Below are positions 9,678 to 29,735 of a stretch of DNA of 64,000 bases, in pieces (position 1 is the first letter of the stretch; each line of letters opens with the position of its first letter). The stretch lies in the NCBI RefSeq assembly GCF_017873335.1, contig NZ_JAGGKB010000007.1, positions 1 to 64,000 of the forward strand, in the 5' to 3' direction. This stretch comes from Thermococcus stetteri (GTDB taxonomy: Archaea; Methanobacteriota_B; Thermococci; Thermococcales; Thermococcaceae). Both the position numbers and the translations under genes were made by a program. The notes beneath the pieces are model-generated. The model did not search any database, had not been told where the DNA came from, and saw only the letters and a program-made list of their open reading frames with translations.

Positions 9678-12600
9678 TCAGCCCCCAACACCCTTTTCTC
9701 CAAACAAAACCGCAGCTTGATTCACTATAACCTCTGAAAGGGCTTTTATCTCATTGTATGATAATCCCTTGAAGTTTTTCATCAATACCCTCTTAACCTG
9801 ATTCTTTATTTTGGCCATAACCTGCTTTCTCCTCCTCCAATCTGCAACCGTTACGTATCCGCTGAGCGTTTTTACTATCTCCTTCGCTATCATCTCTATC
9901 TGGGAATAGTTTTGAGCTATCTTCTCTTGGGACATCAATAGGTCGTAGAATGCCAGCTCCTCTTCGCTCAGATTCAATTGCTTTCCTTCTTCTATGGCTT
10001 TTCTGGTTTCCTTGGCAATCTGTATTAACTCCTCAATTACCTCCGAAACCTCAATAAGCCGTAGGTTGTATTTGTCAATTATCTCTTGAAGCCTCTGATA
10101 CAGCGACTTATATCTGTACGGGTTCTTTCTCATTCTCACCCTTATTTGATCCTCAAGGATTTTGGTTAGGACATCAGCAACATAATTTTTGTATTCCACC
10201 TTTGTCAGTTCCTGTAAGAACTCATCGCTGAGAAGAGAAACGTCCGGCTTCTCCCTTTTCATTAACTCAAACACATCTATCGGCTTCTCTGCTACTATGC
10301 TCTTCGAGATAAGTTCTGTCATATCTTCTTCTATGCTCTTTGTTAGTGTCTTCCCTTTTTGAGACTGATACTTTATTATCATGCTTTTTATCATGTTGAA
10401 AAACACCAGATCCTCCTTTATTTTCATAGTTTCTGGATGAGGACTAGCAAGAGCATACAACTTCTTTAATGCCACAACGTTCTTAAGGAACTTCTTCTTG
10501 GTATTTTCGTCCCTGCTAACCCTAGCATAAGCACTGGCTGTCAATATGGCCAAATCCCTCTCATTCATCTTCCTCCAATTCTTGTAATCTAAACCGTAGA
10601 AATAGGAAGAAACTATGTCGTACTTCTCTTTCATCAGATCCAGTATCTGGTTTATATCTGTGAGTACTTTCTTGGCTTCTTCTGGTGCATACACTGAAAG
10701 GGATTTCTTCAAATCATCAGCTATTCCGATATAATCTACGATCAATCCCCCTGGTTTATCTTTGAAAACCCTGTTCACTCTGGCTATTGCCTGAACCAAT
10801 GAATGGTTCTTCATCGGCTTATCAAAATACATCGTGTGGAGGCATGGAACGTCAAAACCGGTGAGCCACATATCGACCACTATAACCATCAGCAACTCAG
10901 AATCTGGGTCTTTAAACGTCTTTGCTAAGGCTTTCAGCTCCTTTTTCGTTCTTATGTGTGGATGGAACTTCTCAGGATCCCTCGATTTGCTTCCTGAGAT
11001 CACAACCGCCACAGAATTAGGGCCGAATCTTTTTTTCATTGGTTCTTTGAGTCTTTCATAAAGCTCAACCGCAACCCTGCGGCTTATGGTTACCACTATA
11101 GCCTTTCCCTTAAACTCTCCGAGCCTCTTACTGAAATGTTCCACTATGTCCTCTGCTACTTTGTTAAGCCTGTCGGGTGATAGCATCAACCGCTCTAATC
11201 TTGCGAATTTTCTTTTCAACTCCTCTTTAGCTTCTTCCTTTATGGAAGGATCCTTTATGGCCCTCTCGGAGATTTCCTCGAACTCCTCGTCGATGAACTC
11301 ATTAGTCAGGTGTAACCTAGCCAGTCTGGACTCGTAGTATATCGGAACAACCACACCATGTCTTCTCGCTGTGTCCATTGAATAAATGCTGATATAATCC
11401 CCAAACGTCAGCGGTGTTGATTTGTCTGCATATTCAATCGGTGTGGCCGTAAAGCCCAGTAGTGAGGCGTTTGGCAGGGCCTTCCTCAGGTTCTTTGCCA
11501 AGTCTTTATACTGGCTACGATGGGCCTCATCGGCAACCACTATGAGGTTATGCCTGTCGTTGAGTATCGGGTAGAATCCGCTTCTCCTGTGTGGCTTGTA
11601 CCAATCTATCGGCTTAAAAGATACGATATAAACCGTCTTCTCCCTAAGTTTCTTTTCTGAAATCGGCTTATCTGGATGTTTTCTGTTCACTTCCCTTTTT
11701 ATGGCATCTTTCAATTCCTCAAGACTTCTGAAACCCATTCCCTCTATGTCCTCCTTCGATAATTCATCGAACTTCTTTTCCTTAACGTCTTTTATGATAG
11801 CCTCTCCAACAACCAGTTCTCCAACCTGAATAAAACCCGTTTCGGGTTCCTCCTCATTACCGCTAACGGTCCTAATGCTGAATCCCCTTCTTATCTTTCC
11901 CTCCTTAACATTCTCAATGTCGCCTTCACTGGAAGAGGTAACTATGTATCTATCAAAATCACCAAATTTCTGAATCGTGGCGAAAACAACACCACCGGCC
12001 TTCCTGCTAAGAAGTTCCCTAAGCTCTTTAACGCTCTCAGCCTTATTGACATTCCTCATTATTCCGGTGAAAACATCATATAACTGATCGTCAAGCTCTC
12101 TCCTATCCGTGATAAATAGTAACATTGGGTTTTCCAGTTCTTTTGCTTTGAGAGCCCTTCTGGCGTAGAACAGCATCGTTAATGATTTACCGCTCCCCTG
12201 GGTATGCCATATAGTCCCTATCCTTTTTTCCTCCGGTCTCTTTCCATACTTTACGGCCCTTACTGTCCTCTCTATCGCTTTTCTCACTGCGTAGAACTGG
12301 TGATACATCGCTATCTTCTTTGTGAAACTCCTTTCTACTCCCTCATGGATGATAAAATCGTTCAGGTACTCCAAAAGCCTCTCCCTCTGAAAAAGTCCCA
12401 TTAAGAGGACTTCCAAACTCGTTAATGGTTTTTCCATCCCCGGATACTTGTATAGCCTCCCCTCTTCACTTATAATCCTCAGATCATCATCACTCTCTAT
12501 TCCTTCCCATACAAAGAACCTCTCCCAAGGGCTCGTGGGTGATCCATACTTAGTTTCTATTCCGTCACTCACAACCAGAATCTGAGCATATTTGTAAAGC

Positions 12601-13163
12601 TGTGGTATGTCCCCCTTCTTCGTCATGTGGTCTTCATATGCGTCTTTAGCCGTCTGCGGAGAGTTTGGTCCTTTGAACTCAAAAACTGCTATCGGAATAC
12701 CGTTTATGAAAACCACCATGTCGGGGACTCTGTACAATCCCCTCTCTCTGTAAAAATCGACCCTGAACTGGTTTGATACCAAAAACTCATTGTTGTCCGG
12801 GTTTTCAAAATCAACCAGTTTAACGAGCCTCGTCCTCTCATCCTTCCCTCTCCCAACCTTCAGCTTAACTCCAATAGTCAGCATGTCGTAGAACTCTTTC
12901 ATACCAAGACTAAACTCACGGTGAGAAACATCAACGACCTTCTGGTAAACCTTTTCAGCCTGAGACTCGGTTAGCCAAGGATTAAGTCTCTTTATAGCTC
13001 CAATAAACCGGGGCTTGAGAATAACATGCCTGTATGACTCACGCTCACCCTCCTTCGGTGTGAGCTCCTTCCCATGAACATAATTATAGCTAAGCTTATC
13101 TTTGAGAATTTTTATGGCGAGATCCTCTACCGTATATTGTTCATTTAATTCTGCCTCAGCCAT
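9678..13163 (-). CDS. hsdR: Type I restriction enzyme, R (motor/nuclease) subunit
   Basis: 1161 residues. The N-terminal nuclease motif is visible as D148 in VPDMVVFING and E162-x-K164 in VFEFKG. The SF2 motor has Walker A HTQGSGKSLT near residue 325, VVADEAHRSQ as the DEAD-like box, LLGFTATP, and QAIARVNRVF as motif VI. A helical C-terminal region would bind HsdM/HsdS. The family is ATP-dependent DNA translocases that cut unmethylated DNA at a distance. The start ATG at 13163 lies 2 bases after the preceding gene and uses its GGTGAGGG tail as ribosome binding site. No lesion is seen, so restriction activity is plausible. Confidence 0.95.
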   Translation of the reverse strand: MAEAELNEQYTVEDLAIKILKDKLSYNYVHGKELTPKEGERESYRHVILKPRFIGAIKRLNPWLTESQAEKVYQKVVDVSHREFSLGMKEFYDMLTIGVKLKVGRGKDERTRLVKLVDFENPDNNEFLVSNQFRVDFYRERGLYRVPDMVVFINGIPIAVFEFKGPNSPQTAKDAYEDHMTKKGDIPQLYKYAQILVVSDGIETKYGSPTSPWERFFVWEGIESDDDLRIISEEGRLYKYPGMEKPLTSLEVLLMGLFQRERLLEYLNDFIIHEGVERSFTKKIAMYHQFYAVRKAIERTVRAVKYGKRPEEKRIGTIWHTQGSGKSLTMLFYARRALKAKELENPMLLFITDRRELDDQLYDVFTGIMRNVNKAESVKELRELLSRKAGGVVFATIQKFGDFDRYIVTSSSEGDIENVKEGKIRRGFSIRTVSGNEEEPETGFIQVGELVVGEAIIKDVKEKKFDELSKEDIEGMGFRSLEELKDAIKREVNRKHPDKPISEKKLREKTVYIVSFKPIDWYKPHRRSGFYPILNDRHNLIVVADEAHRSQYKDLAKNLRKALPNASLLGFTATPIEYADKSTPLTFGDYISIYSMDTARRHGVVVPIYYESRLARLHLTNEFIDEEFEEISERAIKDPSIKEEAKEELKRKFARLERLMLSPDRLNKVAEDIVEHFSKRLGEFKGKAIVVTISRRVAVELYERLKEPMKKRFGPNSVAVVISGSKSRDPEKFHPHIRTKKELKALAKTFKDPDSELLMVIVVDMWLTGFDVPCLHTMYFDKPMKNHSLVQAIARVNRVFKDKPGGLIVDYIGIADDLKKSLSVYAPEEAKKVLTDINQILDLMKEKYDIVSSYFYGLDYKNWRKMNERDLAILTASAYARVSRDENTKKKFLKNVVALKKLYALASPHPETMKIKEDLVFFNMIKSMIIKYQSQKGKTLTKSIEEDMTELISKSIVAEKPIDVFELMKREKPDVSLLSDEFLQELTKVEYKNYVADVLTKILEDQIRVRMRKNPYRYKSLYQRLQEIIDKYNLRLIEVSEVIEELIQIAKETRKAIEEGKQLNLSEEELAFYDLLMSQEKIAQNYSQIEMIAKEIVKTLSGYVTVADWRRRKQVMAKIKNQVKRVLMKNFKGLSYNEIKALSEVIVNQAAVLFGEKGVGG

Positions 13164-13165
13164 CG

Positions 13166-13567
13166 TTAGAATCCCTCACCAATTTTATCCCAAGCATCCT
13201 TATATTTTTCGTAGTCTTTGTATTCTATCCAGTAAGATACCTCACCCTTTTTGTTGACTCTCTTGTTCATCTCCCTCTTTACCTCCTCCAGAGTCAGGAT
13301 AAAGAGTTCTGGTGAGTCTAAAACGTTTCGACAAATGATAAGGAAGTCAAAATCAACAGTTATCCCTCCTGAGAGAGGTACTGCATTTCTTCCGCTCAAT
13401 GATTTCACTTGAATCGTGTATTTTCTACTTCCATCCTGGCTATAAATTACAATATCAACACCTTTTGCGTTCCGTATTGTAGGTAAACAGTTCCAACCTC
13501 TCTTAGACAGCTCATAGCATACATAAAACAATCCAATATTTCCCACTAACTGTCTATTTCCCTTCAT
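13166..13567 (-). CDS. Small PD-(D/E)XK-like protein within the hsd operon
   Basis: 133 residues. The N-terminal helix GNIGLFYVCYELSKRGWNC, then the GVDIVIYSQDG strand with a conserved Asp, and YTIQVKSL with Q-x-K form the arrangement of Hjc/Mrr-like PD-(D/E)XK nucleases, with Gln in the place usually held by Glu. Many small stand-alone members of this kind have no assigned role. The ATG overlaps the hsdS TGA by four bases (ATGA), so it is coupled to hsdS, and hsdR follows after 2 bases. This is not a standard type I subunit. It may be an accessory nuclease, a DNA-binding pseudo-nuclease, or a modifier of restriction. Confidence 0.65.
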   Translation of the reverse strand: MKGNRQLVGNIGLFYVCYELSKRGWNCLPTIRNAKGVDIVIYSQDGSRKYTIQVKSLSGRNAVPLSGGITVDFDFLIICRNVLDSPELFILTLEEVKREMNKRVNKKGEVSYWIEYKDYEKYKDAWDKIGEGF

Positions 13568-14880
13568 AACTCTTCCACCCTCAACCTTCCAAACACCAAT
13601 TGCGGGAGGAGTGTATCGCGAACCTTTTTCAGGAGCATAATCTCTTTTTCGTTGATAAGTATTTTCTGGAATAGTGGTTCTACGAGAGAGTGGAAGCGCT
13701 CGAGGATTGGTTGTGGTGGAACTGGGATGTAATAATTCTCCTTGAAATTCCTTAAATCAAATCCCCATACTCCCGTTCCAGTGTGATACGTATTTGCAAT
13801 CACTTTTTGATAAGTCCTGAAGATAAGGTACAAATACTCTTTAATTTCCTCTGAGAACGGCATGACCTTAGTTATGTGATGAGAGTAAACACCCTTATCT
13901 TTTCCATACTCGGGTGGGAATATAACAAATGCTGGACTTCCTAGAAGCCGTCCGCTCTTAGTTTGCTCGGTATTCGCGAAAATTAAATCGCCCTCCTTCA
14001 AAAAGTGTCTCTGCTTCAATCTCGTACTCTTAATCCATGCATACTCTGGTTTAAATCCTCCTCCTTCGTTGATATTATTTAAAGTTATGAAAACATAAGC
14101 CCCATCAACATACTCTGAAAACTTCTCGCTTCCTTTATACGACAAACCATTTGTAAACTCTGCAGCCTCTCCAATCGGCTTGACATCCCACCCCTCCGGC
14201 ATCTCCATATCCAGCTCCTCGCTGTAAACGAACTCCTCATCCTGAAAAGGCTCGAAGTCGATAAACCAGCTCTTGAATATCGCCATCGCTGTTTTTTCCA
14301 AAATCTCGTTCTGCCTGCGTTTGTTCTCTATCAGGTCGTCGAACCAAGAAAGAACAGTGGCGATGCGGGTTTGTTCTTCTGGAGGTGGGTAGGCTACACT
14401 AAGATTTTCCAATATGTCTACTGTAAATGCCGGATAAGTTGAAGCGTTTTCCTCCGCAATTTGTGTCAAAAACTCAGTAACATAATCTGTGGTTAGGAAA
14501 AAATAAAGGAATCTTGGCTCAATGTTTTTAGACCTAATTACAGCAAAACCTGTAGATGCAACTGTATTGCTGTTTGCTTTCTTAATAAATGCATAATGTC
14601 GTAGATTTGGTCTTACAGTAGACAACAATATATCTTTATCTTTTACAACTCTCTTGGCACGACTGGGTGCGGATTCAAGAGGTATCAATTTCTTCTCCAA
14701 AATTATACCTTCCTCAACGGAATTTATGTCGATGTATTCGATTATTTTATGTGGGTAATTCTTGTTAATGTTCTCCTCATTCACCCTCGCAATACTATTA
14801 ACTTTCATAACCTCCCAATCCTTCGGTATCTCTCCAATCTCCGTCTCTCTGAACTCAGTTTCCCATCTGAACTTTAGCAT
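13564..14880 (-). CDS. hsdS: Type I restriction-modification specificity subunit
   Basis: 438 residues with the two-TRD plan of HsdS: EIGEIPKDWEVMKVNSIA opens TRD1, PPPEEQTRIATVLSWFDDLI marks the first conserved helix, MPEGWDVKPIGEAAEFTNG opens TRD2, and VPPQPILERFHSLVEPLF with a terminal coiled helix closes the protein. It sets the target for both methylation and cleavage. The ATG at 14880 is preceded by GGTGGTAAAA; a GTG nine bases upstream is possible. A 5' fragment of a second, non-identical hsdS lies about 1 kb upstream (15874-15963). Confidence 0.93.
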   Translation of the reverse strand: MLKFRWETEFRETEIGEIPKDWEVMKVNSIARVNEENINKNYPHKIIEYIDINSVEEGIILEKKLIPLESAPSRAKRVVKDKDILLSTVRPNLRHYAFIKKANSNTVASTGFAVIRSKNIEPRFLYFFLTTDYVTEFLTQIAEENASTYPAFTVDILENLSVAYPPPEEQTRIATVLSWFDDLIENKRRQNEILEKTAMAIFKSWFIDFEPFQDEEFVYSEELDMEMPEGWDVKPIGEAAEFTNGLSYKGSEKFSEYVDGAYVFITLNNINEGGGFKPEYAWIKSTRLKQRHFLKEGDLIFANTEQTKSGRLLGSPAFVIFPPEYGKDKGVYSHHITKVMPFSEEIKEYLYLIFRTYQKVIANTYHTGTGVWGFDLRNFKENYYIPVPPQPILERFHSLVEPLFQKILINEKEIMLLKKVRDTLLPQLVFGRLRVEEL

Positions 14881-14892
14881 TTTTACCACCTT

Positions 14893-15819
14893 TCACCCCT
14901 TTGTCATCTCCACAATCTTTGTGGATGCGTAATTCAGTTCCAGCTCTGTTATCACAACCAATCTTTCATCAAGCCATTTCTTTGACTCCTCTTTTATGAG
15001 GTCTTCCAGTATATTCAGCTCAACAACTATTCCAATATCCATCACTCTATGTAGATCTTCAGCGTACTTATTCAGCTCATCTGGTATGACTTCGATTTCA
15101 AACAATTCTTTTTCAGCAAGGAGTCTTCTACCAACGTTTGTTTTATCTGGTGCCACATGAACATCTGCCGATAGTTCTCTATAATAAAAGTCGTAAACAT
15201 ACTCCACAGGATCTATAATCTCCTGAATTGGATCGAAGATTTTCCAGTCTGCAAGTTGCTTAACAATTGATTTTACGCTTGGAATGATCTTTCTAAGAGT
15301 TCCATCTTCAAAAAGAGGTGAAATTTTATCATAAATCCCTGCAGAGGTTTTCTCCACCTCATCTTCTATTGAAGGTTTCTGCTTAATGAGTTCATCCAGC
15401 CAATCTACGAGCGAGATCTTGTGGTTCTCAACTTTAGCCCTCTCTTTCCTGATAACTTCTGCATTATCTCTGTATCTCTTATGAGCCATGCACTCCCAAA
15501 AAGCACCCTTTAAAATCAGCTCCAGCGTATTTCTCAGTAATGTGTAGGCAGCATTGTAATACCCCGAAAGTGATTCTAATAGGGATCTATGTGCCTGATC
15601 GAAAGCCTCGCTGTGATAAATAAGAAATGCTGATTTTGCCTGAAAATCTTCATTGGAACTTATCAAGTGCGTGGGTATCAGCATGAATTCGTGAATAGAG
15701 TCATGTGCTTTTCGTATTTTTTCAAAATCGCATTTCTGAAGAGAGATAGCAATATGGGGGATATTCAGTTCTTTTAAACAATGTGAAAATGCCTTCCTGA
15801 AAATACTGTCTTCAGCCAT
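14893..15819 (-). CDS. HEPN-like (DUF5677-type) protein inserted in the hsd operon
   Basis: About 308 residues, largely alpha-helical. Two blocks recall DUF5677/AbiV-like HEPN proteins: LLRNTLELILKGAFWE, with Arg near residue 96, and YYRELSADVHV, with His near residue 221. In such families the spaced Arg and His belong to an RNase site or its relic. The ATG at 15819 has GAGGAGATAAAA in front; starts at 15840 and 15846 are also open. It sits between the hsdS remnant and the intact hsdS, so it may have arrived by the event that broke the first hsdS. A role as an abortive-infection effector tied to restriction is inference. Weakly recognised: the family call could be wrong. Confidence 0.55.
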   Translation of the reverse strand: MAEDSIFRKAFSHCLKELNIPHIAISLQKCDFEKIRKAHDSIHEFMLIPTHLISSNEDFQAKSAFLIYHSEAFDQAHRSLLESLSGYYNAAYTLLRNTLELILKGAFWECMAHKRYRDNAEVIRKERAKVENHKISLVDWLDELIKQKPSIEDEVEKTSAGIYDKISPLFEDGTLRKIIPSVKSIVKQLADWKIFDPIQEIIDPVEYVYDFYYRELSADVHVAPDKTNVGRRLLAEKELFEIEVIPDELNKYAEDLHRVMDIGIVVELNILEDLIKEESKKWLDERLVVITELELNYASTKIVEMTKG

Positions 15820-15873
15820 TTTTATCTCCTCATTTTTCATCTTCACACCTAAATTTAATGCCTCGAAACTTCT

Positions 15874-15963
15874 TTAAGTTTCCTTGTAAGCTCCCTTCCA
15901 ATCTATAGGTGTCTCCCCTATCGGTGTATTCTTGAACTCCTTTTCCCACTTGAACTTGATCAT
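15874..15963 (-). pseudogene. 5' remnant of a second hsdS gene
   Basis: The minus strand reads MIKFKWEKEFKNTPIGETPI then DWKGAYKET and a TAA. It aligns with the first residues of the intact HsdS (MLKFRWETEFRETEIGEIPKD), so it is the start of an hsdS cut off after 29 codons. Its ATG overlaps the TGA of the upstream membrane-protein gene by four bases, exactly the coupling expected of a native operon gene. It therefore probably represents the original hsdS position. Confidence 0.8.
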
Positions 15964-16259
15964 CTTTTTTCACCCACCACTGCCGATACAAACGTTCCAG
16001 CTACGTCTCCTATCACCATGCTGGGCAGGGATTCAACGAAGTACGTTATCACATTGGTCAATCTCCACTCCATTTCCTTAGGTGGAGTTCCAGAGGGATT
16101 GAAAATCGCCGGCAACATAAATGACATTAACGTGATAATGAATATCATCGATCCCACATCTGAGTAGAGTTTGTACACGTCAAAACCCCATAGCTGATAC
16201 GTTATGAACCCAACGAAGGCAAAAATTATGAAGAGTATGAGCTGAGTTTCAAGATCCAT
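15960..16259 (-). CDS. Small membrane protein between hsdM and hsdS
   Basis: 99 residues. Hydrophobic segments LILFIIFAFVGFITYQLWGF and MIFIITLMSFMLPAIF are likely membrane helices, and a third weaker one is near the C terminus (VIGDVAGTFVSAVVG). The ATG at 16259 follows GGGGTGACAGTC, which overlaps the hsdM stop region, and its TGA overlaps the start of the hsdS remnant, so all three were translationally coupled. I do not recognise the family. A membrane protein inside a type I restriction operon is unusual and could tether the complex or be a passenger. Confidence 0.7.
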   Translation of the reverse strand: MDLETQLILFIIFAFVGFITYQLWGFDVYKLYSDVGSMIFIITLMSFMLPAIFNPSGTPPKEMEWRLTNVITYFVESLPSMVIGDVAGTFVSAVVGEKR

Positions 16260-16264
16260 GACTG

Positions 16265-17956
16265 TCACCCCAACTTAAACCCGAGAGCCTCGAAGACCTC
16301 TTGGACTTTCCCCCTCACTTCCTCTTCCTGTTTGAGTAGTTTGGCCATCTCTTCGCTGTACTCCCTCATCTTCTCCTCAAATGTCCTCTGATCATCAAAC
16401 TCTAACTTTACACCGACATATCTTCCAGGAGTCAATACGTAGTTGTTCTTCGCTATCTCCTCTATTGTGGCAACTTTAGCAAAGCCCACTTCATCTATCT
16501 CGTCGAGTTTACCTTCTTCAAAGAGACGGAACTTCTCGACTATCTTCGCTATGTGCTCATCTGTTAGAATGTTCTGTCTCCTTGATATTGGCTTATAGAG
16601 GTTCTTGGCGTTAATGAAGAGAACTTTACCCTTCATGTGCTCAGGTTTCTTCTTTCTCATGAACCACAGCGACACCGGTAGCGATACGTTGTAGAACAGC
16701 TTCGGCGGCGCCGCAACAATCCCGTAAACCAAATCCTTTTCAATAAGCTTTCTTCTTATCTTCCCCTCCAGTCCGCCTGCTGAAAGAGCCCCGTTGGCCA
16801 TGACAAACCCAGCCTTACCGTTCGGGGCAAGGTGATAGACAAAGTGAAGTATCCACATGTAGTTGGCGCTGTTCTCGGGTGGTATCAGTGTCTCCTCATC
16901 GCTCACTATTTTAATCCTCGGGTCATCTTCGCTTATCCTGTTCGCTCCCCACCTGCTGTCGTTGAACGGTGGGTTTGAAACCACGAAATTAAACCTCTCA
17001 TGCATGAACTTATCGTCGTGATACGAATCTCCTAACTTTATGTCTCCCTCGGCCCCTCTTATCGCCAGGTTCATCTTACATATCTTCCACGGCCCTTCCT
17101 TTGACTCCTGTCCATATATCGCCAGTCTTGTTTTATCCACCCCCTCCCTTTCGAGAGCTGCTACAAAGAATCCACCGCTTCCACATGCCGGGTCGAATAT
17201 CTTTCCTTCCTTAATGTCTAACACTTCAACGATTAACTTCGTCAGTGAACGTGGAGTATAAAACTCTCCTCCTTTCTGTCCCTCAACCTGTGCGAACTTT
17301 CCAAGGAAATATTCGTAGATCCTGCCGAAAAGATCCCTTCCATCTTTTCCCTTTCCAAAGTCAATATCGGTGAAGAGGTTAATCAGGTACGCTAGGTCCT
17401 CGGGGGCCAAGTTTATCTCGGCATACTTTTTGGGTATAACATCAGCTAGATGATCAGGATACTTATCTTCGAGAATGGAGATTGTGTTATCTATGATCTC
17501 CCCTATGTTCGGCTGGTTTGCGTTCTTTTTGAAATAGCTCCATCTGGCCTCTTCTGGGAGATAAAACACTCCAGCCTCGATATAATATTCCTCGTCCTCC
17601 AAAACGGCCCTTCTCATCTCTGGATCTTCGATGTAATCTTCGCTCTTGGGATTTCCAAACCTTTCTTCAAGCTCCTTTCTTCTCCTCTCAAAAGCCTCTG
17701 AGAGGTACCTTAAAAAAACCAGCCCCAATACTATGTATTTATACTCATGAACTTCAACCTTCTTTCTCAGTTTATCGGCTGCAGCCCATAGCTTCTTTTC
17801 AAGCTCCGGTTCCAGTTCATGATAGCTTCCCCTCCCTCTCCTAACTGTATCAGTTTTAATTCTATCCTTTTTCATTCTCTCCATCTCCGCTTTCTCTTTC
17901 CGCTTATTTACATCCTTCCTGTACGATCTGGAAAGATACTCATCGAGTGTTGGCAT
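16265..17956 (-). CDS. hsdM: Type I restriction-modification DNA methyltransferase subunit
   Basis: 563 residues. The N-terminal HsdM helical domain (LEKKLWAAADKLRKKVEVHE) is followed by the N6-adenine methyltransferase core with SAM motif FDPACGSGGFFVAALE and catalytic SNPPFND. KGGEFYTPRSLTKLIVEVL is the usual linker before motif I. The C terminus is a helical segment that contacts HsdS. The ATG at 17956 follows GGTGATACTA. It is the first gene of the operon, with a leader of roughly 200 bases from the promoter-like sequence near 18175. Confidence 0.95.
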   Translation of the reverse strand: MPTLDEYLSRSYRKDVNKRKEKAEMERMKKDRIKTDTVRRGRGSYHELEPELEKKLWAAADKLRKKVEVHEYKYIVLGLVFLRYLSEAFERRRKELEERFGNPKSEDYIEDPEMRRAVLEDEEYYIEAGVFYLPEEARWSYFKKNANQPNIGEIIDNTISILEDKYPDHLADVIPKKYAEINLAPEDLAYLINLFTDIDFGKGKDGRDLFGRIYEYFLGKFAQVEGQKGGEFYTPRSLTKLIVEVLDIKEGKIFDPACGSGGFFVAALEREGVDKTRLAIYGQESKEGPWKICKMNLAIRGAEGDIKLGDSYHDDKFMHERFNFVVSNPPFNDSRWGANRISEDDPRIKIVSDEETLIPPENSANYMWILHFVYHLAPNGKAGFVMANGALSAGGLEGKIRRKLIEKDLVYGIVAAPPKLFYNVSLPVSLWFMRKKKPEHMKGKVLFINAKNLYKPISRRQNILTDEHIAKIVEKFRLFEEGKLDEIDEVGFAKVATIEEIAKNNYVLTPGRYVGVKLEFDDQRTFEEKMREYSEEMAKLLKQEEEVRGKVQEVFEALGFKLG

Positions 17957-18124
17957 TAGTATCACCAAGTTCTGCTCTCAGTTTCTTTTCTTATATTATT
18001 TAGTCTCCACCTTTTAGAATCTTTTCCCGAGCATCCATAGTGTACTCTCCAGAATTCAGTTTGTTATTATCTCCCTATCCCCGAAACATGGAAAAAACCT
18101 GCTCCAACGCTAAAATCTCCTTTT

Positions 18125-18925: not shown

Positions 18926-19831
18926 ATGACGGGGGTAATCACAAACGATGTTATCGCCAGAAGATTATTCCTACCAGACCCAGAAGAATGCTACAGGACA
19001 ATCAGACAAATTCGCTGGCCAAACGGAGTAACCTGCCCATACTGCGGCAGTAAAAACATTCAGAAGAACGGACACACGCCGAAAGGAGCTCAAAAATACC
19101 ACTGCAAAAACTGCAGAAAACACTTCAACGACTTAACAGGCACAATATTCGACCACCACAAATTCCCAATCAACGAAATGACTTAACGGGTCAATGCCTC
19201 ACAAAAGCACCAAACTAATCTCAGAAGAACTCAACAGGGACTACCAAGCAGTCCTAAACTTCGTCCACGAAGTGCAGAGGATGGCCGGAAACTCTAAAGT
19301 CAGGCTGGAGGATGTTGTTGAAATTGACGAAGTTTACCCGCACGCCGGCAGTAAAGGCTTTAAAAAAAGAATCCCAGGCGGAGAGGCAGGCACAAGCGTG
19401 GCAGGGGAACTGCAAAGTCCGGAAAACCGCCAGTAGTGACTCTCGTGGCTCGAAGAACAGGGCAAGTTCTCTTTCTTGTCTTTGAGAATCTGCGGGATTT
19501 TCCTCAGAAACTCAAGCAGCGGGTTGGAAATTTGATTGCGGGAGAACTGAAGGTTTTTACTGACGAGTATTCCATTTATGATTCTCTGAAGGAGGGTTTG
19601 GGGGTTATTAATTCTCATGAGCGGGTTAATCATTCTGAGAGGGAGTTTGCGCGTGGTGAGGTTCACGTTAATACTTGTGAAAACAGGCATGGTTTTCTGA
19701 GGGCTTATCTGAAGAAGTATCGTGGTGTTAGTTTCAGGTGGTTGCAGGGTTATTTGGACTTTCTGGCGTTGATTCTGAATAACAGGTGGGGGTGGTTCCC
19801 AGAACTAATATCAACCAGAATACCTAGATGA
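18926..19831 (+). pseudogene. IS1595-type transposase, frameshifted
   Basis: Three pieces make one transposase. The first (MTGVITNDVIARRLFLPDPE) contains a zinc ribbon, CPYCGSKNIQKNGH and YHCKNCRKHF. The second (MPHKSTKLISEELNRDYQAV) leads to VVEIDEVYPHAG, the first acidic residue of the ISXO2-type DDE domain. The third contains VFTDEYSIYDSL and ENRHGFLRAYLKKYRGVSF. The breaks are a stop at 19184-19186 and a minus-one shift at an A7 run at 19362-19368, beyond which NPRRRGRHKRGRGT-like sequence continues the family pattern. I could not identify terminal inverted repeats, so element ends are not given. Confidence 0.85.
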
Positions 19832-19835
19832 GCGA

Positions 19836-20303
19836 TTAAAATATCCTTACGATGCCCAAACTAGGTAGTAAGGTTATCAAAATGCTGAACAATCCTCCAA
19901 ATAACAAGGCACCCATAGTTCTCTTTTTTTCCATCCCAAATATATAAGCCGCTAAACTTCCGGTCCACACTCCTGTTCCCGGGAGGGGTATGGCAACAAA
20001 GATAATAAGGCCTAAAAATCCCCACTTTTCCACATATGGATGGGCCTTTTTCCTTGCTCTCTCAACATATTTTAGATAGAGTTCCGCAAACTTTCCCAAA
20101 GAAGTATTTTCAAGTTTAAGCATTACCAAATCTATTAAGGGTAAAAGAATAGGTAATGTCAAAGAAAGAAGAAGTACCCCAAACGAGGCCATTATTAAAG
20201 TTCCGGATAGAGGGTAACCTCTGCCAATACCATAAACTATGGCATATCTTCCCTCAAACGTTGGAACAAGTGAGAGTAAGAATATTTCTATGAATTTATT
20301 CAA
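19836..20303 (-). CDS. COG2426 small multidrug-export-like membrane protein
   Basis: 155 residues with the family landmarks FLLSLVPTFEGRYAIVYGIG near the N terminus and FVAIPLPGTGVWTGSLAAY near the C terminus, and four or five hydrophobic helices. The family name refers to small multidrug export proteins, but the transported substrate is unproven. It starts with TTG overlapping the 3' end of the PAP2 gene and uses GGAGGTGTT just upstream. A paralogous PAP2-COG2426 pair with the same overlap and start arrangement occurs at 28634-29735. Confidence 0.85.
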   Translation of the reverse strand: MNKFIEIFLLSLVPTFEGRYAIVYGIGRGYPLSGTLIMASFGVLLLSLTLPILLPLIDLVMLKLENTSLGKFAELYLKYVERARKKAHPYVEKWGFLGLIIFVAIPLPGTGVWTGSLAAYIFGMEKKRTMGALLFGGLFSILITLLPSLGIVRIF

Positions 20304-20946
20304 CTCTGAACACCTCCAATTTCAGTTTTTCTATGAGTGAGTTATAGACCAGAAGCCAAAGCTTAGCTGTGGATTCGACTATAATCGAAACCCATATACC
20401 AAGGAAGAGAGCGAATAAAACGTCGCTGAACCAGTGAACACGCAAAAGCAACCTTGAAAGAGCGATAAGGAGCGCATATCCCCATAAAGCTATTCTATAC
20501 TTGGGATAGCGCCCTCCTAAAAAATAGGCTAAAATGGATGCCCTCGTAGTGTGTCCAGAGGGGAACGCAAAATAGTCTGCGTTTAGAAGTGCTTGGAAGA
20601 AGGTTAAGTGTAAAGGTGCTTCATTAGGTCTTGGGATGTCCGTAGAGGCTTTTAATACTCCAACGAGGAGCATGCCAAGAAAAATCGAGAGCGTAAAGTT
20701 CAAAGTTTCAAGACTAAGTTTTCTCTCTTTCTTGAAATCCCAAATTAGAAAGAGCAAGATGTAAAGTACAAAAGCTCCGAAGCTTGCCGACTGTGTTATT
20801 ATATTGACCCAAGAAGAGTTTATGAGAGGTGTGTGAGCATATACATAGGCATTAATTCCATTAAATAAGCCGAGGTATTCGATAATTATTATGCTTACCA
20901 ATGTGAGCGTTAAAAGTGCAAACGGCCAAGATTTTAACTTATCCAT
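20296..20946 (-). CDS. PAP2-family membrane phosphatase
   Basis: 216 residues with about six membrane helices. The three-part phosphatase signature is present: KASTDIPRPNEA, FPSGHTTRAS, and SRLLLRVHWFSDVLFALFLG, with the catalytic His in RVHWFSD. Such enzymes dephosphorylate lipid pyrophosphates or phosphatidate on the outer face of the membrane; in archaea polyprenyl-pyrophosphate recycling is a reasonable guess. The gene overlaps the preceding small membrane protein by 8 bases and the following COG2426 gene by 8. Confidence 0.9.
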   Translation of the reverse strand: MDKLKSWPFALLTLTLVSIIIIEYLGLFNGINAYVYAHTPLINSSWVNIITQSASFGAFVLYILLFLIWDFKKERKLSLETLNFTLSIFLGMLLVGVLKASTDIPRPNEAPLHLTFFQALLNADYFAFPSGHTTRASILAYFLGGRYPKYRIALWGYALLIALSRLLLRVHWFSDVLFALFLGIWVSIIVESTAKLWLLVYNSLIEKLKLEVFRVE

Positions 20947-21226
20947 GCCTTTTACTCTCCTTCACAGCCACTGCAATGAAGAATAGGGAGATTATAAGGA
21001 ACTCCAGCAAGTTTACCATCAAGTCAATGGTTCCTCCTTCTATTTCTGGAAAGACTATGTCAATCTGCTCAACAAACTCCTTCAGCGCATAAAGTAGAAA
21101 CGCTAATGAAACTATCAGGAACTTTCTAAGCTTCGTTCTCTGATATGCAATAATTGCCGCTCCTGTTAATAGGAGAGAGAACATAACAATCCCAAGGCTT
21201 AAAATTTGCTCCATATCCAGCATCAT
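20939..21226 (-). CDS. Small three-helix membrane protein
   Basis: About 95 residues with hydrophobic segments LGIVMFSLLLTGAAIIAYQR, FLIVSLAFLLYALKEFV and LVNLLEFLIISLFFIAVAV, and a short basic C-terminal tail. The ATG at 21226 follows GAGAGGTGATTG and lies 4 bases after the stop of the wHTH regulator gene. Proteins of this layout often accompany archaeal wHTH regulators in Thermococcales, but I do not recognise a function. Confidence 0.7.
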   Translation of the reverse strand: MMLDMEQILSLGIVMFSLLLTGAAIIAYQRTKLRKFLIVSLAFLLYALKEFVEQIDIVFPEIEGGTIDLMVNLLEFLIISLFFIAVAVKESKRHG

Positions 21227-21229
21227 CAA

Positions 21230-21757
21230 TCACCTCTCAAAGTCCATGAATAAATCAACAATTCTATCCGCCCACTTGGCAAGTAAACTCGGATGATAGT
21301 TCATGATCATTTTAAGGAAGAGCTCCTCATTTCCTGTGAAATAATATTTTACAAACTTTCCATCTCTCTTATTTTCAACCAGCCCTAATTCATTGAGTCT
21401 CGTCATGTAGTAATTAATAGTAGGTGGGGTAAGTCCCGTTTTATCGCACAGCTCCATTTGAGTAATTCCTGGGTTTGCAATCAGAGCCATTATTATCTCC
21501 CTCACGTTTTCACTTGAAAGCAATGCCAATATTTCCTTTTCTCTCTCACTAAAAATGCTTGCGGGAAAGTAGTGCCTTTTTAAGCCACTTCGTTTTGATA
21601 CAATCAACCCAAGTTTTTCAAGTTTGTGGATGTGATACTGGAGAACTCCGGGAGCTAGTTCCATTCTCCGGGATATCTCGTTAAAGCTCAGACCGGGATT
21701 TTCTCTGATGAATTCGAGCACTTGCTGCGTCCGCTCATTAAGCTTTTTGTCATTCAT
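21230..21757 (-). CDS. Transcriptional regulator with two winged-helix domains
   Basis: 175 residues made of two tandem winged-helix units: residues about 10-65 (NERTQQVLEFIRENPGLSFN, LAPGVLQYHIHKLEKLGLIV) and about 75-140 (EKEILALLSSENVREIIMAL, LTPPTINYYMTRLNELGLVE). Both recognition helices are of ArsR/MarR type. No cysteine-based metal site or ligand domain is evident. It heads the minus-strand operon and diverges from the secreted PepSY-like protein gene across 205 bases containing the latter's promoter, so it may control both directions. Confidence 0.85.
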   Translation of the reverse strand: MNDKKLNERTQQVLEFIRENPGLSFNEISRRMELAPGVLQYHIHKLEKLGLIVSKRSGLKRHYFPASIFSEREKEILALLSSENVREIIMALIANPGITQMELCDKTGLTPPTINYYMTRLNELGLVENKRDGKFVKYYFTGNEELFLKMIMNYHPSLLAKWADRIVDLFMDFER

Positions 21758-21909
21758 GGCTATCTTTAATCATTTGTGCTCCAAGAGTTAATTAATGTTT
21801 TGTGGTTCAGTTTTAAAAATGTCTTCGTGCTTTAATTGGTTATTAATCCCTTAATCAACCCGATATTTCGAAAATTGAACTAACAATTCAAGAAATAAAC
21901 CAGAACAGT

Positions 21910-21917
21910 TTTATATA
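21910..21917 (+). promoter_or_regulatory. TATA element of the PepSY-like protein gene
   Basis: TTTATATA in AT-rich DNA, 46 bases before the GTG start. This is the usual TATA consensus of Thermococcales. It lies in the divergent intergenic region shared with the wHTH regulator. Confidence 0.55.
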
Positions 21918-21962
21918 AGGTCTAAGTATCTAACATTAGAAAGCTGAATGGAGGTGAAAAAT

Positions 21963-22493
21963 GTGAAATGGAAATTCAATATCGGCCTTAAAGTCGTTGC
22001 AGTAATTGTAGCATTGATAGTTACAGTAGGAGTTGGTGCCTTTGCAGTAGCGGCTTCAGACAATACGTCCAACAGCACTAGCGATACGAATTCCCCAACT
22101 TATGTCGGAAGCATATCAGTACCTCAAGACGTGGAAAATGAAAAAGAAGATCAAGAAGCAAAGACACTTCAGGATCTGGCAAAAATAACCGTGGAACAAG
22201 CTAAGGATTCTGCTCTTTCAGTTGTCAATGGAACGATAAATAAAGTGGAACTTGGCAACGAGAACGGCTATTTGGTGTATTCCGTCGAGGTCAAGACTGC
22301 GGATGGAGTCATCAAAGACGTGAAAGTCGATGCAGGAAACGGTAAAGTACTTCAAATTGACACCGACAATGAAATGAATGGAATGGAAAAAGAAAACGAA
22401 AAAGAAAAAGAACAAGCTGGGGAAAAAGAAGACGATGAATCCTCTGCTGATAACGACAATATTCAAGAAGAATCAGAACAAGAAGAAGGTTAA
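21963..22493 (+). CDS. Secreted acidic PepSY-like protein
   Basis: 176 residues. A signal segment (LKVVAVIVALIVTVGVGAFA) is followed by a Ser/Thr/Asn-rich stretch and one PepSY-like domain: LAKITVEQAKDSALSVV, GTINKVELGNENGYLVYSVE, VKVDAGNGKVLQI. The C-terminal 45 residues are almost entirely Glu, Lys and Asp. The GTG at 21963 has GGAGGTG at correct distance; an ATG 15 bases upstream is the ribosome binding site region itself. PepSY modules bind or inhibit extracytoplasmic enzymes. The acidic tail may bind cations or the S-layer. It is the first gene of the plus-strand half of the envelope cluster. Confidence 0.75.
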   Translation: MKWKFNIGLKVVAVIVALIVTVGVGAFAVAASDNTSNSTSDTNSPTYVGSISVPQDVENEKEDQEAKTLQDLAKITVEQAKDSALSVVNGTINKVELGNENGYLVYSVEVKTADGVIKDVKVDAGNGKVLQIDTDNEMNGMEKENEKEKEQAGEKEDDESSADNDNIQEESEQEEG

Positions 22494-22586
22494 GCTTTCT
22501 CTTTAATTTTCCACACCTCTTTAATATTTGAAAAATGAACCAATTGACTTTTAATAGCAGGGATAAAAGAAAAAGTGGGATTTAAG

Positions 22587-23459
22587 ATGATAAACTTTGG
22601 CGATTACACAGCCCTTATTCGCTCTCTAGACAATAAAAGCTTGGAGCTTTTAGGAATAGCACTAGTCTTGTATTACATAAGCACCCTTATTTACGCTCTT
22701 CGCTGGAAAATAGTACTTGCAGGCATGGGGGAAAATATCCCAGTGCTGGACCTTTTGAAGGTGACCCTATCTTCTATTTTTGTTAACAATATTACCCCCA
22801 TGAGTAGAGGGGGTGGAGAGATACTTCGAGTAACATGGGTATCAAAGAAGCACAAAATACCTCTAACATTATCAACTGTAAGTATTGTCTATGAAAGGAT
22901 TATGGAGATAATCCCAGTTATGTTTCTGCTTCTACTTGCCATTACATACTTTGCAACACACCTACTTTCCATTGCTGCCATATTTGTTATTTTCATACTC
23001 CTCATATGGCTCAAGTGGGAAGACTTGATAAAAATCTCTACCAAACTCTTGAAAATAAGACTTACCCCAGAGGAACTTATTAAAATGAGTGCGCTAAAGA
23101 AAAAGCCCTCTTTAAATATCTTAGCAATAAGCTTGAGTTCGATGGCCTGGACTTTAGAGATTGCAAGACTTAAACTCATAGCCCTTGCATTTGGATGGAA
23201 TCCAAGTATCGGGTTCCTCGCGATAATATCCCTCGCCAATCTGGTATTCGGATTGATGGCATTCACCCCCGGCGGATTGGGCATCGTGGAAGGAGGACTC
23301 TTTGGGACTCTTACCTATTTTGGAATTCCCTCCACACTTGCCATCTCAATCACTCTAATTGAGCGTTTTATCTCATATGTTTTGAGCACTATAGTTGGTT
23401 TTCTCGTATTGATAATTTCAGGAGGAATTGAACTATGGAAAGCCTTAAAATCGCATTAG
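22587..23459 (+). CDS. Lysylphosphatidylglycerol-synthase-TM-like (YbhN/UPF0104) flippase-like protein
   Basis: About 290 residues, eight hydrophobic helices. The conserved LRWKIVLAGMG-like opening, VNNITPMSRGGGEILRVTW (the TP-x-RGGGE motif of the family) and FTPGGLGIVEGG near the C terminus identify the YbhN/AglD-type membrane family. Archaeal relatives take part in lipid or glycan handling. The ATG at 22587 (MINFGDY) is preferred; a GTG 12 bases earlier is also open. Its 3' end overlaps the glycosyltransferase start by 25 bases. Confidence 0.85.
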   Translation: MINFGDYTALIRSLDNKSLELLGIALVLYYISTLIYALRWKIVLAGMGENIPVLDLLKVTLSSIFVNNITPMSRGGGEILRVTWVSKKHKIPLTLSTVSIVYERIMEIIPVMFLLLLAITYFATHLLSIAAIFVIFILLIWLKWEDLIKISTKLLKIRLTPEELIKMSALKKKPSLNILAISLSSMAWTLEIARLKLIALAFGWNPSIGFLAIISLANLVFGLMAFTPGGLGIVEGGLFGTLTYFGIPSTLAISITLIERFISYVLSTIVGFLVLIISGGIELWKALKSH

Positions 23460-24658
23460 CATCTGACTGGTTTTTCCCAAGCGTGGGAGGAATAGAGTAT
23501 CATGTCCATGATTTAGCCACACATTTGACTGCCATTGGTCATGAGGTTCATGTAATAACGAGATTTGGGGCTTACCCTGATGAAAAACTTCCCTATGATG
23601 TTCACCGCTTTAAGGGGAGAATAACCATAAATAGTCTCCATGTGAGCATTGGAACGGATATGCTAAAGAAGGTGAATGAACTATACAAGAAGGAGCACTT
23701 CGACATGACCCACGGTCACAGCATATATTCCCCTACCGCGGTAGGCGTCTCAAATCTTTCAAGTGGTATAAGAAGGGTTCCAAGCATGATCACAAATCAC
23801 TCATTCCTTGGAAATTCCATGCTAAATCCTGCTTATATTGCAGTCCTAAGACTCTCCCTGCGCAAAGTTAACTCCTTTATAGCAGTTAGCGAAGCAGTTG
23901 AGAGAGATCTACGTTCAATTTTAGGTAAGAGCTTAAGAGGGAGACCTATATATACAATTCCAAACGGCATAGATACAGAATTTTGGAGACCAGCTGAGGA
24001 CAAAGAGGAAACAAAGTCAGAACTTGGATATAAAGGAGTTGTAGTTACAACGACCTCTCGCCTCACAAAAAGAAAAAGAGTTCATATAATCCCCAAAATC
24101 GCAAGAACAATAAGAGAGGATTATGGAGACAACATTACATTTTTGATAATTGGTGACGGGCCAGAAAGGAAAAACATCGAAGAGGCAATCAAGAAATACA
24201 GAGTTAATGACATGGTTAAGCTTTTGGGTAAGCAACCTAGAGAGAATATCAAAAAATATCTCCAGGCAAGCGATATTTATCTCTCTCCCACAATATACGA
24301 AGCCTTTGGATTGGCTGCTTTGGAGGCTTTGGCCTGTGGTGTTCCAGTAGTAGCTAACAACCATGGAGGGATTAGTGAGATCGTCAACCATAATAGCAGT
24401 GGCTTGCTTTCCCAAAATGACTATGAACTCCTCCAAAACTTAAGAAAGTTAATAGAAGATGAAGAACTCAGAGAAAAAATGGGCAAGGAAGCAAGAAGAA
24501 GTGTGGAAAAGCGTTTTACATGGGACAAAATAGTGTGGGATATCTTAACCGTATACAAAGAAACAATGAATCTCACTCCAATGCAGCCTTTTGCACTTTA
24601 TAAACTTTACCAGACCCTAAAAAGAGGGATTGCAAATGCTAGTGTCTTTAACCTTTGA
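23435..24658 (+). CDS. GT4-family glycosyltransferase
   Basis: 407 residues with two Rossmann halves. The N-terminal SDWFFPSVGGIEYHVHDLA matches the acceptor-side GG-I-x-x-H/V loop of GT4 enzymes such as PIG-A and PimA. The C-terminal half has SRLTKRKRVHIIPKIA and SPTIYEAFGLAALEALACG, the EX7E donor-binding motif. It probably transfers a sugar from a nucleotide donor to a membrane lipid or glycan. The neighbouring flippase-like and deacetylase genes overlap it at both ends, which points to one pathway. Confidence 0.9.
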   Translation: MESLKIALASDWFFPSVGGIEYHVHDLATHLTAIGHEVHVITRFGAYPDEKLPYDVHRFKGRITINSLHVSIGTDMLKKVNELYKKEHFDMTHGHSIYSPTAVGVSNLSSGIRRVPSMITNHSFLGNSMLNPAYIAVLRLSLRKVNSFIAVSEAVERDLRSILGKSLRGRPIYTIPNGIDTEFWRPAEDKEETKSELGYKGVVVTTTSRLTKRKRVHIIPKIARTIREDYGDNITFLIIGDGPERKNIEEAIKKYRVNDMVKLLGKQPRENIKKYLQASDIYLSPTIYEAFGLAALEALACGVPVVANNHGGISEIVNHNSSGLLSQNDYELLQNLRKLIEDEELREKMGKEARRSVEKRFTWDKIVWDILTVYKETMNLTPMQPFALYKLYQTLKRGIANASVFNL

Positions 24659-25334
24659 TGTAGAACAAGACTGTCCACCTTATTTAAATACTACTTTAGG
24701 AGTAGAAAAGGGATTGCCAAGGATCCTTGACTTACTTGAAGAATACAGAGTCAAGGGAACTTTCTTTTTCACTGCCAAGATAGCCAGAAAGTATCCATCT
24801 CTTGTAAAGCGTGTGGTCGAGGAAGGCCACGAACTTGGGTGCCATGGGTATAATCATGAACGTCTTGACAAACTCTCAAAAGAGGAGGCAGTTAGAAGCA
24901 TAATAAAGTCCATGAACGTGCTTAGGGAATTCGATGATATTATGTCATTTCGGGCCCCCAATCTTCAACTACCCAGTTATCTTTACTCTACTCTCAAGGA
25001 AAACGGAATCCTAGTGGACTCATCAAAAGCACGTTACAAAGGATATACGAAAAAGATTTCCTATATCAATGGGGTCCTTGAAGTCCCAACCTCAATCACT
25101 TCCTCCCTTCTTAGACTGCCGTGGCGGATTCAGAGGCCCATTCATGATTATTTAAATGAACCAAAGGTCTACTTTGCCCACCCTTGGGAATTTGTATCAA
25201 TGAAAAATGTTCGCTTTGATTGTCGCTTCAATACGGGAAATAAGGCTCTTGAACTCCTTAAAAGACTCATAGAGTACTATAAAAACCAAAAAGCTGAGTT
25301 TATCTTAATGAGAGACTATCCACGCATTTATTAG
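24636..25334 (+). CDS. Polysaccharide deacetylase family protein (NodB/CE4-like)
   Basis: 232 residues. LTFDVEQDCPPY carries the catalytic and metal-binding Asp pair, and HELGCHGYNHERLDKL the metal-binding HxxxH; FRAPNLQLPSYLY is the RAP motif region and YFAHPWEFVS the final catalytic His. These fit an N-deacetylase acting on N-acetyl sugars, here presumably of the glycan made by the overlapping glycosyltransferase. The ATG at 24636 follows GAGGG; a TTG six bases earlier is possible. It ends the envelope cluster. Confidence 0.88.
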   Translation: MLVSLTFDVEQDCPPYLNTTLGVEKGLPRILDLLEEYRVKGTFFFTAKIARKYPSLVKRVVEEGHELGCHGYNHERLDKLSKEEAVRSIIKSMNVLREFDDIMSFRAPNLQLPSYLYSTLKENGILVDSSKARYKGYTKKISYINGVLEVPTSITSSLLRLPWRIQRPIHDYLNEPKVYFAHPWEFVSMKNVRFDCRFNTGNKALELLKRLIEYYKNQKAEFILMRDYPRIY

Positions 25335-28633: not shown

Positions 28634-29095
28634 TTACCCAAAAAGGCCAAGGGCAGGCCCCACCGTTATTCCCATGCTCAGAAGACCCCCGAGTATGAGG
28701 GCCGGGATCGTCTGCTTCTTCTCAATCCCGAAGAGATACGCCGCGAGCGCCCCAGTCCATACACCCGTCCCAGGGAGCGGAACCGCCACAAAGAGCGTCA
28801 AACCTATGAAGCCCCACTTCTCAACGTAGGGACGTGCCTTCTTTCTTGCCCGTTCAACATAGTAGAGATACAGGCGGGCAATCTTCCTAAAGGGCGTCTC
28901 TTCAAGCCAGAGCATTAGCCTGTCTATCAGAGGAAGAAGGGCTGGTAGAACAATGGAGAGGATTAGAACACCAGAAGCCGCCGTAAGGAGCGTCCCCAGG
29001 AGGGGATACCCCTTCCCAATGCCATAGACTATTGCATAACGACCCTCAAAGGTGGGGACGAGGGAGAGCAGGAAGACCTCAAGGAGACCGTTCAA
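28634..29095 (-). CDS. COG2426 small multidrug-export-like membrane protein, second copy
   Basis: 153 residues. It shares LLSLVPTFEGRYAIVYGIG, ARKKA-PYVEKWGF and LPGTGVWTG with the copy at 19836-20303 over its whole length. The TTG at 29095 aligns with the start of the first copy and again has GGAGGTGTT upstream, inside the PAP2 gene. This copy is GC-rich like the backbone and is presumably the ancestral one. Confidence 0.85.
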   Translation of the reverse strand: MNGLLEVFLLSLVPTFEGRYAIVYGIGKGYPLLGTLLTAASGVLILSIVLPALLPLIDRLMLWLEETPFRKIARLYLYYVERARKKARPYVEKWGFIGLTLFVAVPLPGTGVWTGALAAYLFGIEKKQTIPALILGGLLSMGITVGPALGLFG

Positions 29096-29735
29096 CGTCA
29101 AACACCTCCAGCCTCAGTGATTTTACGACCTTCCTGTAAATCGGAAGCCAGTATGGCCCTGTAACGTCTAGGAGCAGGTAGGCCCAGGGGCCCAGGAGAA
29201 GGCTGAAGAGGACGTCGCCGAACCAGTGGACGTGGAGCAGAAGCCTCGTGAGGGCGATTCCAACGGCGTAGGCCCACCAGAGCGGGGCATACCTCGGGGA
29301 GCGTTCCTGAAGGTAGGAAGCAAGAACCGAGGCCCTGGCGGTATGGCCCGAGGGGAAGGCAAAGTAGTCAACGTTCTTGAGGGCAAGGAGAAGGGGGGGC
29401 GAAAGCATCTCCTCACCGGGCCGAGGTGTCTGCAAAAGGGCCTTCAGGGAGGCGACAGCTACAAGGGCTAGGAACGCCGAGAGGAGGAACTTGAGGGTGG
29501 GATATGAGAGGCGCCTCTTCTCCCGGATGTCGAGGATAATGAAGAGGACAGCAACAAGGCCAAAGAACGCCATTCCAGCGGTATCCGTGAGGACTCTAAC
29601 CCATGGTGAGGAGAGAAGAGGAAGATGGGAATCTACGTAGGTGTTCACCCCGTCCATGAGGCCCATAACCTGAAGGGCCAGGATAAGGAGAAGGAAACCA
29701 GTTAGAGCACCGAGAACCGCCGGTTTTCTGTCCAT
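29079..29735 (-). CDS. PAP2-family membrane phosphatase, second copy
   Basis: 218 residues. The signature is complete: KALLQTPRPGEE, FPSGHTARASV and LTRLLLHVHWFGDVLFSLLLG. It aligns end to end with the copy at 20296-20946, including the C-terminal LRLEVFDVE versus LKLEVFRVE that contains the ribosome binding site of the next gene. It overlaps the COG2426 start by 17 bases. A phosphatase for lipid-linked pyrophosphates is the likely role. The ASCH gene ends 13 bases upstream. Confidence 0.9.
   Translation of the reverse strand: MDRKPAVLGALTGFLLLILALQVMGLMDGVNTYVDSHLPLLSSPWVRVLTDTAGMAFFGLVAVLFIILDIREKRRLSYPTLKFLLSAFLALVAVASLKALLQTPRPGEEMLSPPLLLALKNVDYFAFPSGHTARASVLASYLQERSPRYAPLWWAYAVGIALTRLLLHVHWFGDVLFSLLLGPWAYLLLDVTGPYWLPIYRKVVKSLRLEVFDVERSP

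Follow-up and report, generated by a model that had tools for sequence, protein, structure and literature searches.

Amino-sugar modification of lipids by a small set of dedicated genes has been described in two bacteria. In Pseudomonas aeruginosa, gpgSDF makes glucosaminyl phosphatidylglycerol (PMC12713373), and Clostridioides difficile has a comparable hexSDF system (PMC10128005); in both, genetics and lipidomics have established a common logic of glycosyltransferase, deacetylase, and flippase. In archaea, a genomic context in which an arCOG00899 flippase accompanies a deacetylase and a glycosyltransferase (e.g., MA0797/MA0798) was noted in 2015 and assigned to glycosylation (PMC5898192). 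Here, we describe an eight-gene cluster at positions 19836-25334 of a 64,000-nucleotide stretch of Thermococcus stetteri (contig NZ_JAGGKB010000007.1; hereafter, the window), and argue that it is probably an accessory, locally regulated copy of an aminoglycolipid operon of the Thermococcaceae. A preliminary description of this DNA had proposed a pathway for a de-N-acetylated glycolipid, and this is still the best reading, given the domain set, the analogy with gpgSDF and hexSDF, and the concordance with lipid data. Its remark that no named archaeal pathway has this gene set was nearly right, apart from the archaeal context of 2015 and the bacterial analogues published since.

Predicted enzymes and pathway

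The plus strand of the cluster ends in three overlapping genes, for a flippase, a GT4 glycosyltransferase, and a CE4 deacetylase (the trio). The adjacency of glycosyltransferase, NodB-like deacetylase, and MprF-like flippase genes places the trio with systems of the hexSDF/gpgSDF kind. The AlphaFold model of the flippase (predicted local distance difference test, pLDDT, 83) matched MprF in all six of its best Protein Data Bank (PDB) hits (probability 1.00; template modeling, TM, score of the query 0.56-0.67), and a sequence-only PDB search gave no match. The protein has 294 amino acids and PF03706 only, with no C-terminal lysyl/alanyl-phosphatidylglycerol synthase domain. For the GT4, the closest solved relatives are BshA, then PimB′, MshA, and PimA. 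Kinship to BshA and MshA, which use UDP-GlcNAc, and to PimB′ and PimA, which use phosphatidylinositol, makes it plausible that the donor is UDP-GlcNAc and that the acceptor contains inositol or is a phospholipid. In the CE4, the metal-binding HxxxH, the RAPN motif, and the C-terminal histidine are present and invariant, and motif 1 reads TFDVEQD, not TFDDG; a sequence check found no signal peptide or transmembrane segment. The PAP2 phosphatase has all three signature motifs, and the PF06695 protein belongs by its domain (2e-28) to the DedA superfamily. PF06695 is homologous to the DedA lipid translocases (PMC7818093). DedA proteins, at times fused to PAP2, are candidates for the translocation of polyprenyl phosphate (PMC9876793).

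In the pathway that we propose, the GT4 would act in the cytosol and transfer an N-acetylhexosamine to the head group of a phospholipid, for example a phosphohexose lipid or archaetidylinositol. The sugar is probably GlcNAc, donated by UDP-GlcNAc. The CE4 would then strip the acetyl group and leave a free amine, and the flippase would move the aminated lipid to the outer surface. PAP2 probably works as a pair with the DedA-related PF06695 protein in cleaving and returning lipid phosphates.

Distribution and sequence types

Judged from its distribution, the trio is a core operon and not an invention of this cluster: it is conserved in the Thermococcaceae and present in most Thermococcus genomes. 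The window genome (2.03 Mb) itself has a second copy (C3:153245-155990), and a CE4 relative was found in 74 of 94 genomes of the whole family, with essentially none in one genus-level group of 13. Three sequence types, A, B, and C, can be distinguished. The window cluster is of type A, and the second copy of type B. In trees of the flippase and the GT4, the sampled type A loci form one group, apart from type B (including the second copy of the window genome) and type C; genomes fetched later (G069, G088, G118, G119, and G124; relatives carry labels G for genomes and L for loci) are assigned to type A on their similarity and the order of their genes. A recent duplication of the core operon inside the window genome is ruled out, as the tree neighbours of the cluster copy are type A loci of other species and not the type B copy of its own genome. 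Types A and B share about 40% identity in the GT4, 62-77% in the CE4, and about 50% in the flippase; GT4 identity with type C is about 28%. That the GT4 diverges far more than the CE4 between A and B looks as if the head group had changed around a shared deacetylation step. In the type C loci L070 (G011), L071, L072, and L073, which have similar neighbours, the GT4-CE4 pair has no flippase beside it or, in G002 (L073), a decayed one.

The full eight-gene divergent set recurs in the same order in four further genomes (G029, G030, G088, and G119), and the copy in G007 is degraded, with a truncated GT4 and no CE4; this recurrence makes the cluster more than a chance assembly. The regulator of G029 is frameshifted (L032, 6846-7378), by real loss or by sequencing error. 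More reduced forms also exist. G069 retains PF06695, PAP2, a short PepSY-like open reading frame (ORF), and the trio, L045, from another metagenome-assembled genome (MAG), has PepSY and the trio at a contig end, and in several genomes, including G118 and G124, only PF06695 is left divergent from the trio. In G007 and the genome of L045, the cluster CE4 is lost or broken and another CE4 is kept. The PepSY protein is confined to cluster-bearing genomes among 41 relatives.

The preliminary description had suggested co-occurrence of the eight genes as a check, with independent occurrence of the two strings in most genomes as the contrary outcome. Co-occurrence holds in the genomes named above, but for the genus as a whole the contrary outcome was observed. 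In most Thermococcus genomes, the trio stands without a minus string, PAP2 and PF06695 are a separate core paralogue pair in nearly all Thermococcus, and the winged helix-turn-helix (wHTH) regulator and small membrane protein are another conserved pair. The window also contains a second PAP2-PF06695 pair (28643-29711; identity with the pair of the cluster, 47 and 71%), with no operator upstream of it. Linkage is thus not a property of the genus; within the type A lineage, however, the two strings are functionally tied: at least five genomes have them linked, and they have one candidate operator in common. In L036, L087, L042, and L035, the core wHTH-membrane protein pair is divergent from a TldD-like gene.

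A trio copy from Thermodesulfobacteriaceae nests within type A, and the contigs concerned also contain bacterial genes, which points to a transfer of the trio between domains. Contamination was considered as an explanation of the bacterial copies and is unlikely, as both contigs have bacterial neighbours. These loci, L049 and L051, come from two Thermodesulfobacteria MAGs and contain flippase-GT4(-CE4); by eye only, a stretch upstream of the trio in L049 resembles a tRNA gene. Loci L060 and L061, in MAGs labelled Diapherotrites and Micrarchaeota, have the trio or flippase-GT4 with a GT4 near type A, and misbinning is possible there.

A common promoter element

A 16-base element, with a consensus of about YATTTCNAAAAYTGRACCA, is present in three copies in the aligned divergent promoter of four genomes. 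Each of the three promoters of the cluster (those of the regulator operon, PepSY, and the flippase) has it 6-7 nt upstream of a TATA-like box. Genome-wide, the pattern TTYNARAAHTGRRCYA is matched exactly at three places, where 0.23 would be expected, and each of them lies in the cluster. As every promoter of the cluster has the element, its exact matches are restricted to the cluster, and one of these matches (site 4) played no part in deriving the motif, the wHTH protein or its paralogue probably governs the plus and minus strings as a single regulon. With up to two or three mismatches, the element also precedes the trio in genomes without an adjacent regulator, including G118. The core wHTH genes that were inspected, from seven genomes, have a related TGAACCA element in their 5′ region, and three more distant wHTH genes have TGTACCA or nothing clear.

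The two-wHTH regulator would bind an element of about 20 bp upstream of the three TATA-like boxes and so control the eight genes together. It is probably an activator, as suggested by the position of the element next to the transcription factor B recognition element (BRE). The small membrane protein and the PepSY protein probably sense or tune the state of the envelope.

Lipid data and alternative explanations

Three of the relatives can be compared with published lipid profiles: G011, which we take to be T. kodakarensis, G118, presumably T. barophilus, and G080, presumably P. yayanosii. A CE4 is present in G011 and G118 and absent from G080; the CE4 of G118 is its only one and lies in a locus that resembles type A of the window in similarity and gene order. 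This pattern agrees with the amino-sugar lipid PHexHexNH2 in all three lipid-typed species. In T. kodakarensis, PHexHexNH2-DGD is the most abundant intact polar lipid (about 41%), and no PHexHexNH2 is reported in P. yayanosii or P. furiosus (PMC7356043); T. barophilus has PHexHexNH2 together with traces of PHexHexNAc (PMC9294538). The match between CE4 presence and this lipid, over three species with presumed identities, is suggestive. Literature searches found no genes for an amino-sugar phospholipid of the PHexHexNH2 type, and a literature text search for glucosaminyl archaetidyl-myo-inositol was without match.

An alternative, which we consider unlikely although it survives best, is that the trio makes an amino sugar linked to polyprenyl (dolichyl) phosphate, which is flipped as a donor for the glycosylation of proteins or surface glycans, with PAP2 and the DedA-related protein serving to recycle the used dolichyl (pyro)phosphate. 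The PAP2-PF06695 pair suits polyprenyl-phosphate recycling, as the DedA-PAP2 fusions illustrate (PMC9876793), and the archaeal flippase family has been assigned to glycosylation on genome context (PMC5898192). However, neither the cluster nor the loci of its relatives contain an oligosaccharyltransferase, a polymerase, or another glycan gene, the trio mostly occurs without PAP2 and PF06695, and the agreement with PHexHexNH2 would be left unexplained. A phospholipid acceptor is more likely than a polyprenyl carrier. The earlier suggestion that PAP2 recycles the lipid carrier is plausible, the more so given its pairing with a DedA-related protein and the known DedA-PAP2 fusions.

Proteins of the CE4 and GT4 families often work on surface polysaccharides, and the best NCBIfam relative of the CE4, below cut-off, is a deacetylase of an exopolysaccharide system. 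It is nevertheless improbable that the CE4 edits an exported polysaccharide built by the GT4, with the flippase-like protein exporting repeat units, since the enzyme lacks a signal peptide or membrane segment and the single GT4 is accompanied by no polymerase or other glycosyltransferase. Least probable of all is a gathering of three unrelated envelope modules in a genomic island with no common pathway: each module is separate in most Thermococcus genomes and the low-GC island adjoins type I restriction genes and the remains of a transposase, but five genomes have the same divergent order, all three promoters a common candidate operator, and the reduced forms a PF06695 gene still divergent from the trio.

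Several points weigh against the aminoglycophospholipid pathway itself. A phospholipid pathway has no obvious need for PAP2 or for a polyprenyl-phosphate transporter. The GT4 scored 85.5 bits as GpgS (NF053787; cut-off 480) and the flippase 18 bits as GpgF (NF053789; cut-off 320), so that both candidates were rejected. The lipid concordance covers three species only, and biomass of P. yayanosii was low. T. kodakarensis (as G011) has a type C GT4-CE4 pair with no flippase alongside, so the flippase would be dispensable or encoded elsewhere. Finally, the promoter motif was partly derived from sites that were later counted, site 4 being the exception.

Gene calls and genomic setting

The eight ORFs are intact, with no internal stops, and most neighbouring genes in both strings overlap or abut (Table 1). 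Pfam domains (PF06695, PAP2, two wHTH, PepSY, LPG_synthase_TM, GT4, and Polysacc_deac_1) back each named function, in accordance with the first assignment of flippase, glycosyltransferase, deacetylase, and PAP2 phosphatase; the last gene of the minus string, PF06695, had been left unnamed in the title of that description. For PepSY, a start at GTG 21963 is favoured over ATG 21948, as the ATG overlaps the ribosome-binding site GGAGGTGA and relatives start at the later position. With this start, the divergent region between the two-wHTH regulator and the acidic, secreted PepSY-like protein is exactly the 205 bases first described (21758-21962).

Table 1. Genes and promoter features of the cluster (window coordinates).
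Feature	Position	Strand	Remarks
PF06695 (Sm_multidrug_ex), DedA-superfamily membrane protein, predicted lipid-phosphate translocase	19836..20303	-	Pfam 2e-28
PAP2 lipid phosphatase	20296..20946	-	Pfam 1.6e-18; KX6RP, PSGH, SRX5HX3D motifs intact
Small multi-pass membrane protein, DUF5985/DUF7471-like	20939..21229	-	Pfam sub-threshold; constant partner of the regulator
Regulator, two winged-helix domains	21230..21757	-	HTH_24 twice, HTH_HVO_0163_N
TATA-like box TTAATTAA of regulator operon	21788..21795	-	Conserved in relatives
Predicted operator site 1	21803..21818	-	7 nt upstream of regulator TATA-like box
Predicted operator site 2, PepSY promoter	21867..21882	+	Tandem copy, 20-bp period
Predicted operator site 3, one mismatch	21887..21902	+	Just upstream of PepSY TATA region
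Secreted or anchored acidic PepSY protein	21963..22493	+	PepSY 1.7e-11; GTG start from alignment
Predicted operator site 4	22527..22542	+	6 nt upstream of TTTTAATA, before flippase; not used for motif derivation
MprF-like flippase (LPG_synthase_TM, COG0392 type)	22575..23459	+	Pfam 3.4e-45
GT4 glycosyltransferase, type A	23435..24658	+	Pfam 1.8e-41; conserved E289/E297 pair
CE4/NodB-type deacetylase without signal peptide	24636..25334	+	Pfam 4.4e-21; motifs TFDVEQD, HGYNH, RAPN, HPWE

The cluster sits in a low-GC stretch of about 7-26 kb and has a GC content of 0.395, compared with 0.543 at 26-64 kb of the window. On this low GC and an adjoining IS1595-type transposase relic, the cluster looks acquired, as had been proposed. 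The relic (IS1595/ISXO2-type, 18926-19831) is split into three ORFs and stops a few bases before the cluster. The same low-GC stretch contains type I restriction-modification genes (9678-17968), with HsdM identified by Pfam and large HsdR-like and HsdS-like ORFs by eye.

Significance and comparison with known systems

It is possible, though we would not call it probable, that the cluster is a regulated membrane-charge system of archaea that functions like MprF: the two-wHTH protein would sense the envelope and switch on aminoglycophospholipid synthesis, flipping, and lipid-phosphate recycling, and the operon, with exchangeable glycosyltransferase types, would account for the major amino-sugar phospholipids of the Thermococcales and have crossed into the Thermodesulfobacteriaceae. 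If so, archaea, like bacteria, would control their surface charge with aminated, flipped lipids, and an archaeal regulator would have a clear candidate operator and target set. The trio also provides concrete, deletable candidate genes for the amino-sugar phospholipid in genetically tractable strains.

With gpgSDF, the trio has in common a three-gene unit of GT4, cytosolic deacetylase, and COG0392 flippase. However, gpgSDF is bacterial and has another gene order, GpgD belongs to COG3233 whereas the deacetylase here is a CE4 of the Polysacc_deac_1 family, and no PAP2, PF06695, PepSY, or wHTH gene is described for gpgSDF. The hexSDF/hexRK locus likewise combines a glycosyltransferase, a polysaccharide deacetylase, and an MprF-like flippase with a dedicated neighbouring regulator, but HexS belongs to the monogalactosyldiacylglycerol synthase type, the regulator is a two-component system, and the product is built on a diradylglycerol glycolipid. 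MprF resembles the system described here in the fold of the flippase domain and in its likely effect on surface charge; unlike MprF, the Thermococcus protein has no aminoacyl-tRNA-dependent synthase domain, and the amino sugar would come from separate enzymes.

For the regulator, the parallel is TFB-RF1 (PF1088) of Pyrococcus, a Thermococcales regulator that, by its description, activates promoters with a weak BRE, at another operon, for a putative ABC transporter (PMC5937170). Identity of the cluster regulator with TFB-RF1 was considered and dropped, as that paper concerns the ABC-transporter operon. In the arCOG00899 context, these three families are likewise neighbours in archaeal genomes, but it is read as glycosylation, and the available text describes no regulator, operator, or lipid correlation (PMC5898192). 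What is new is the interpretation as an aminoglycolipid system, together with the concordance with lipid data, the candidate operator regulon, and the apparent spread between domains.

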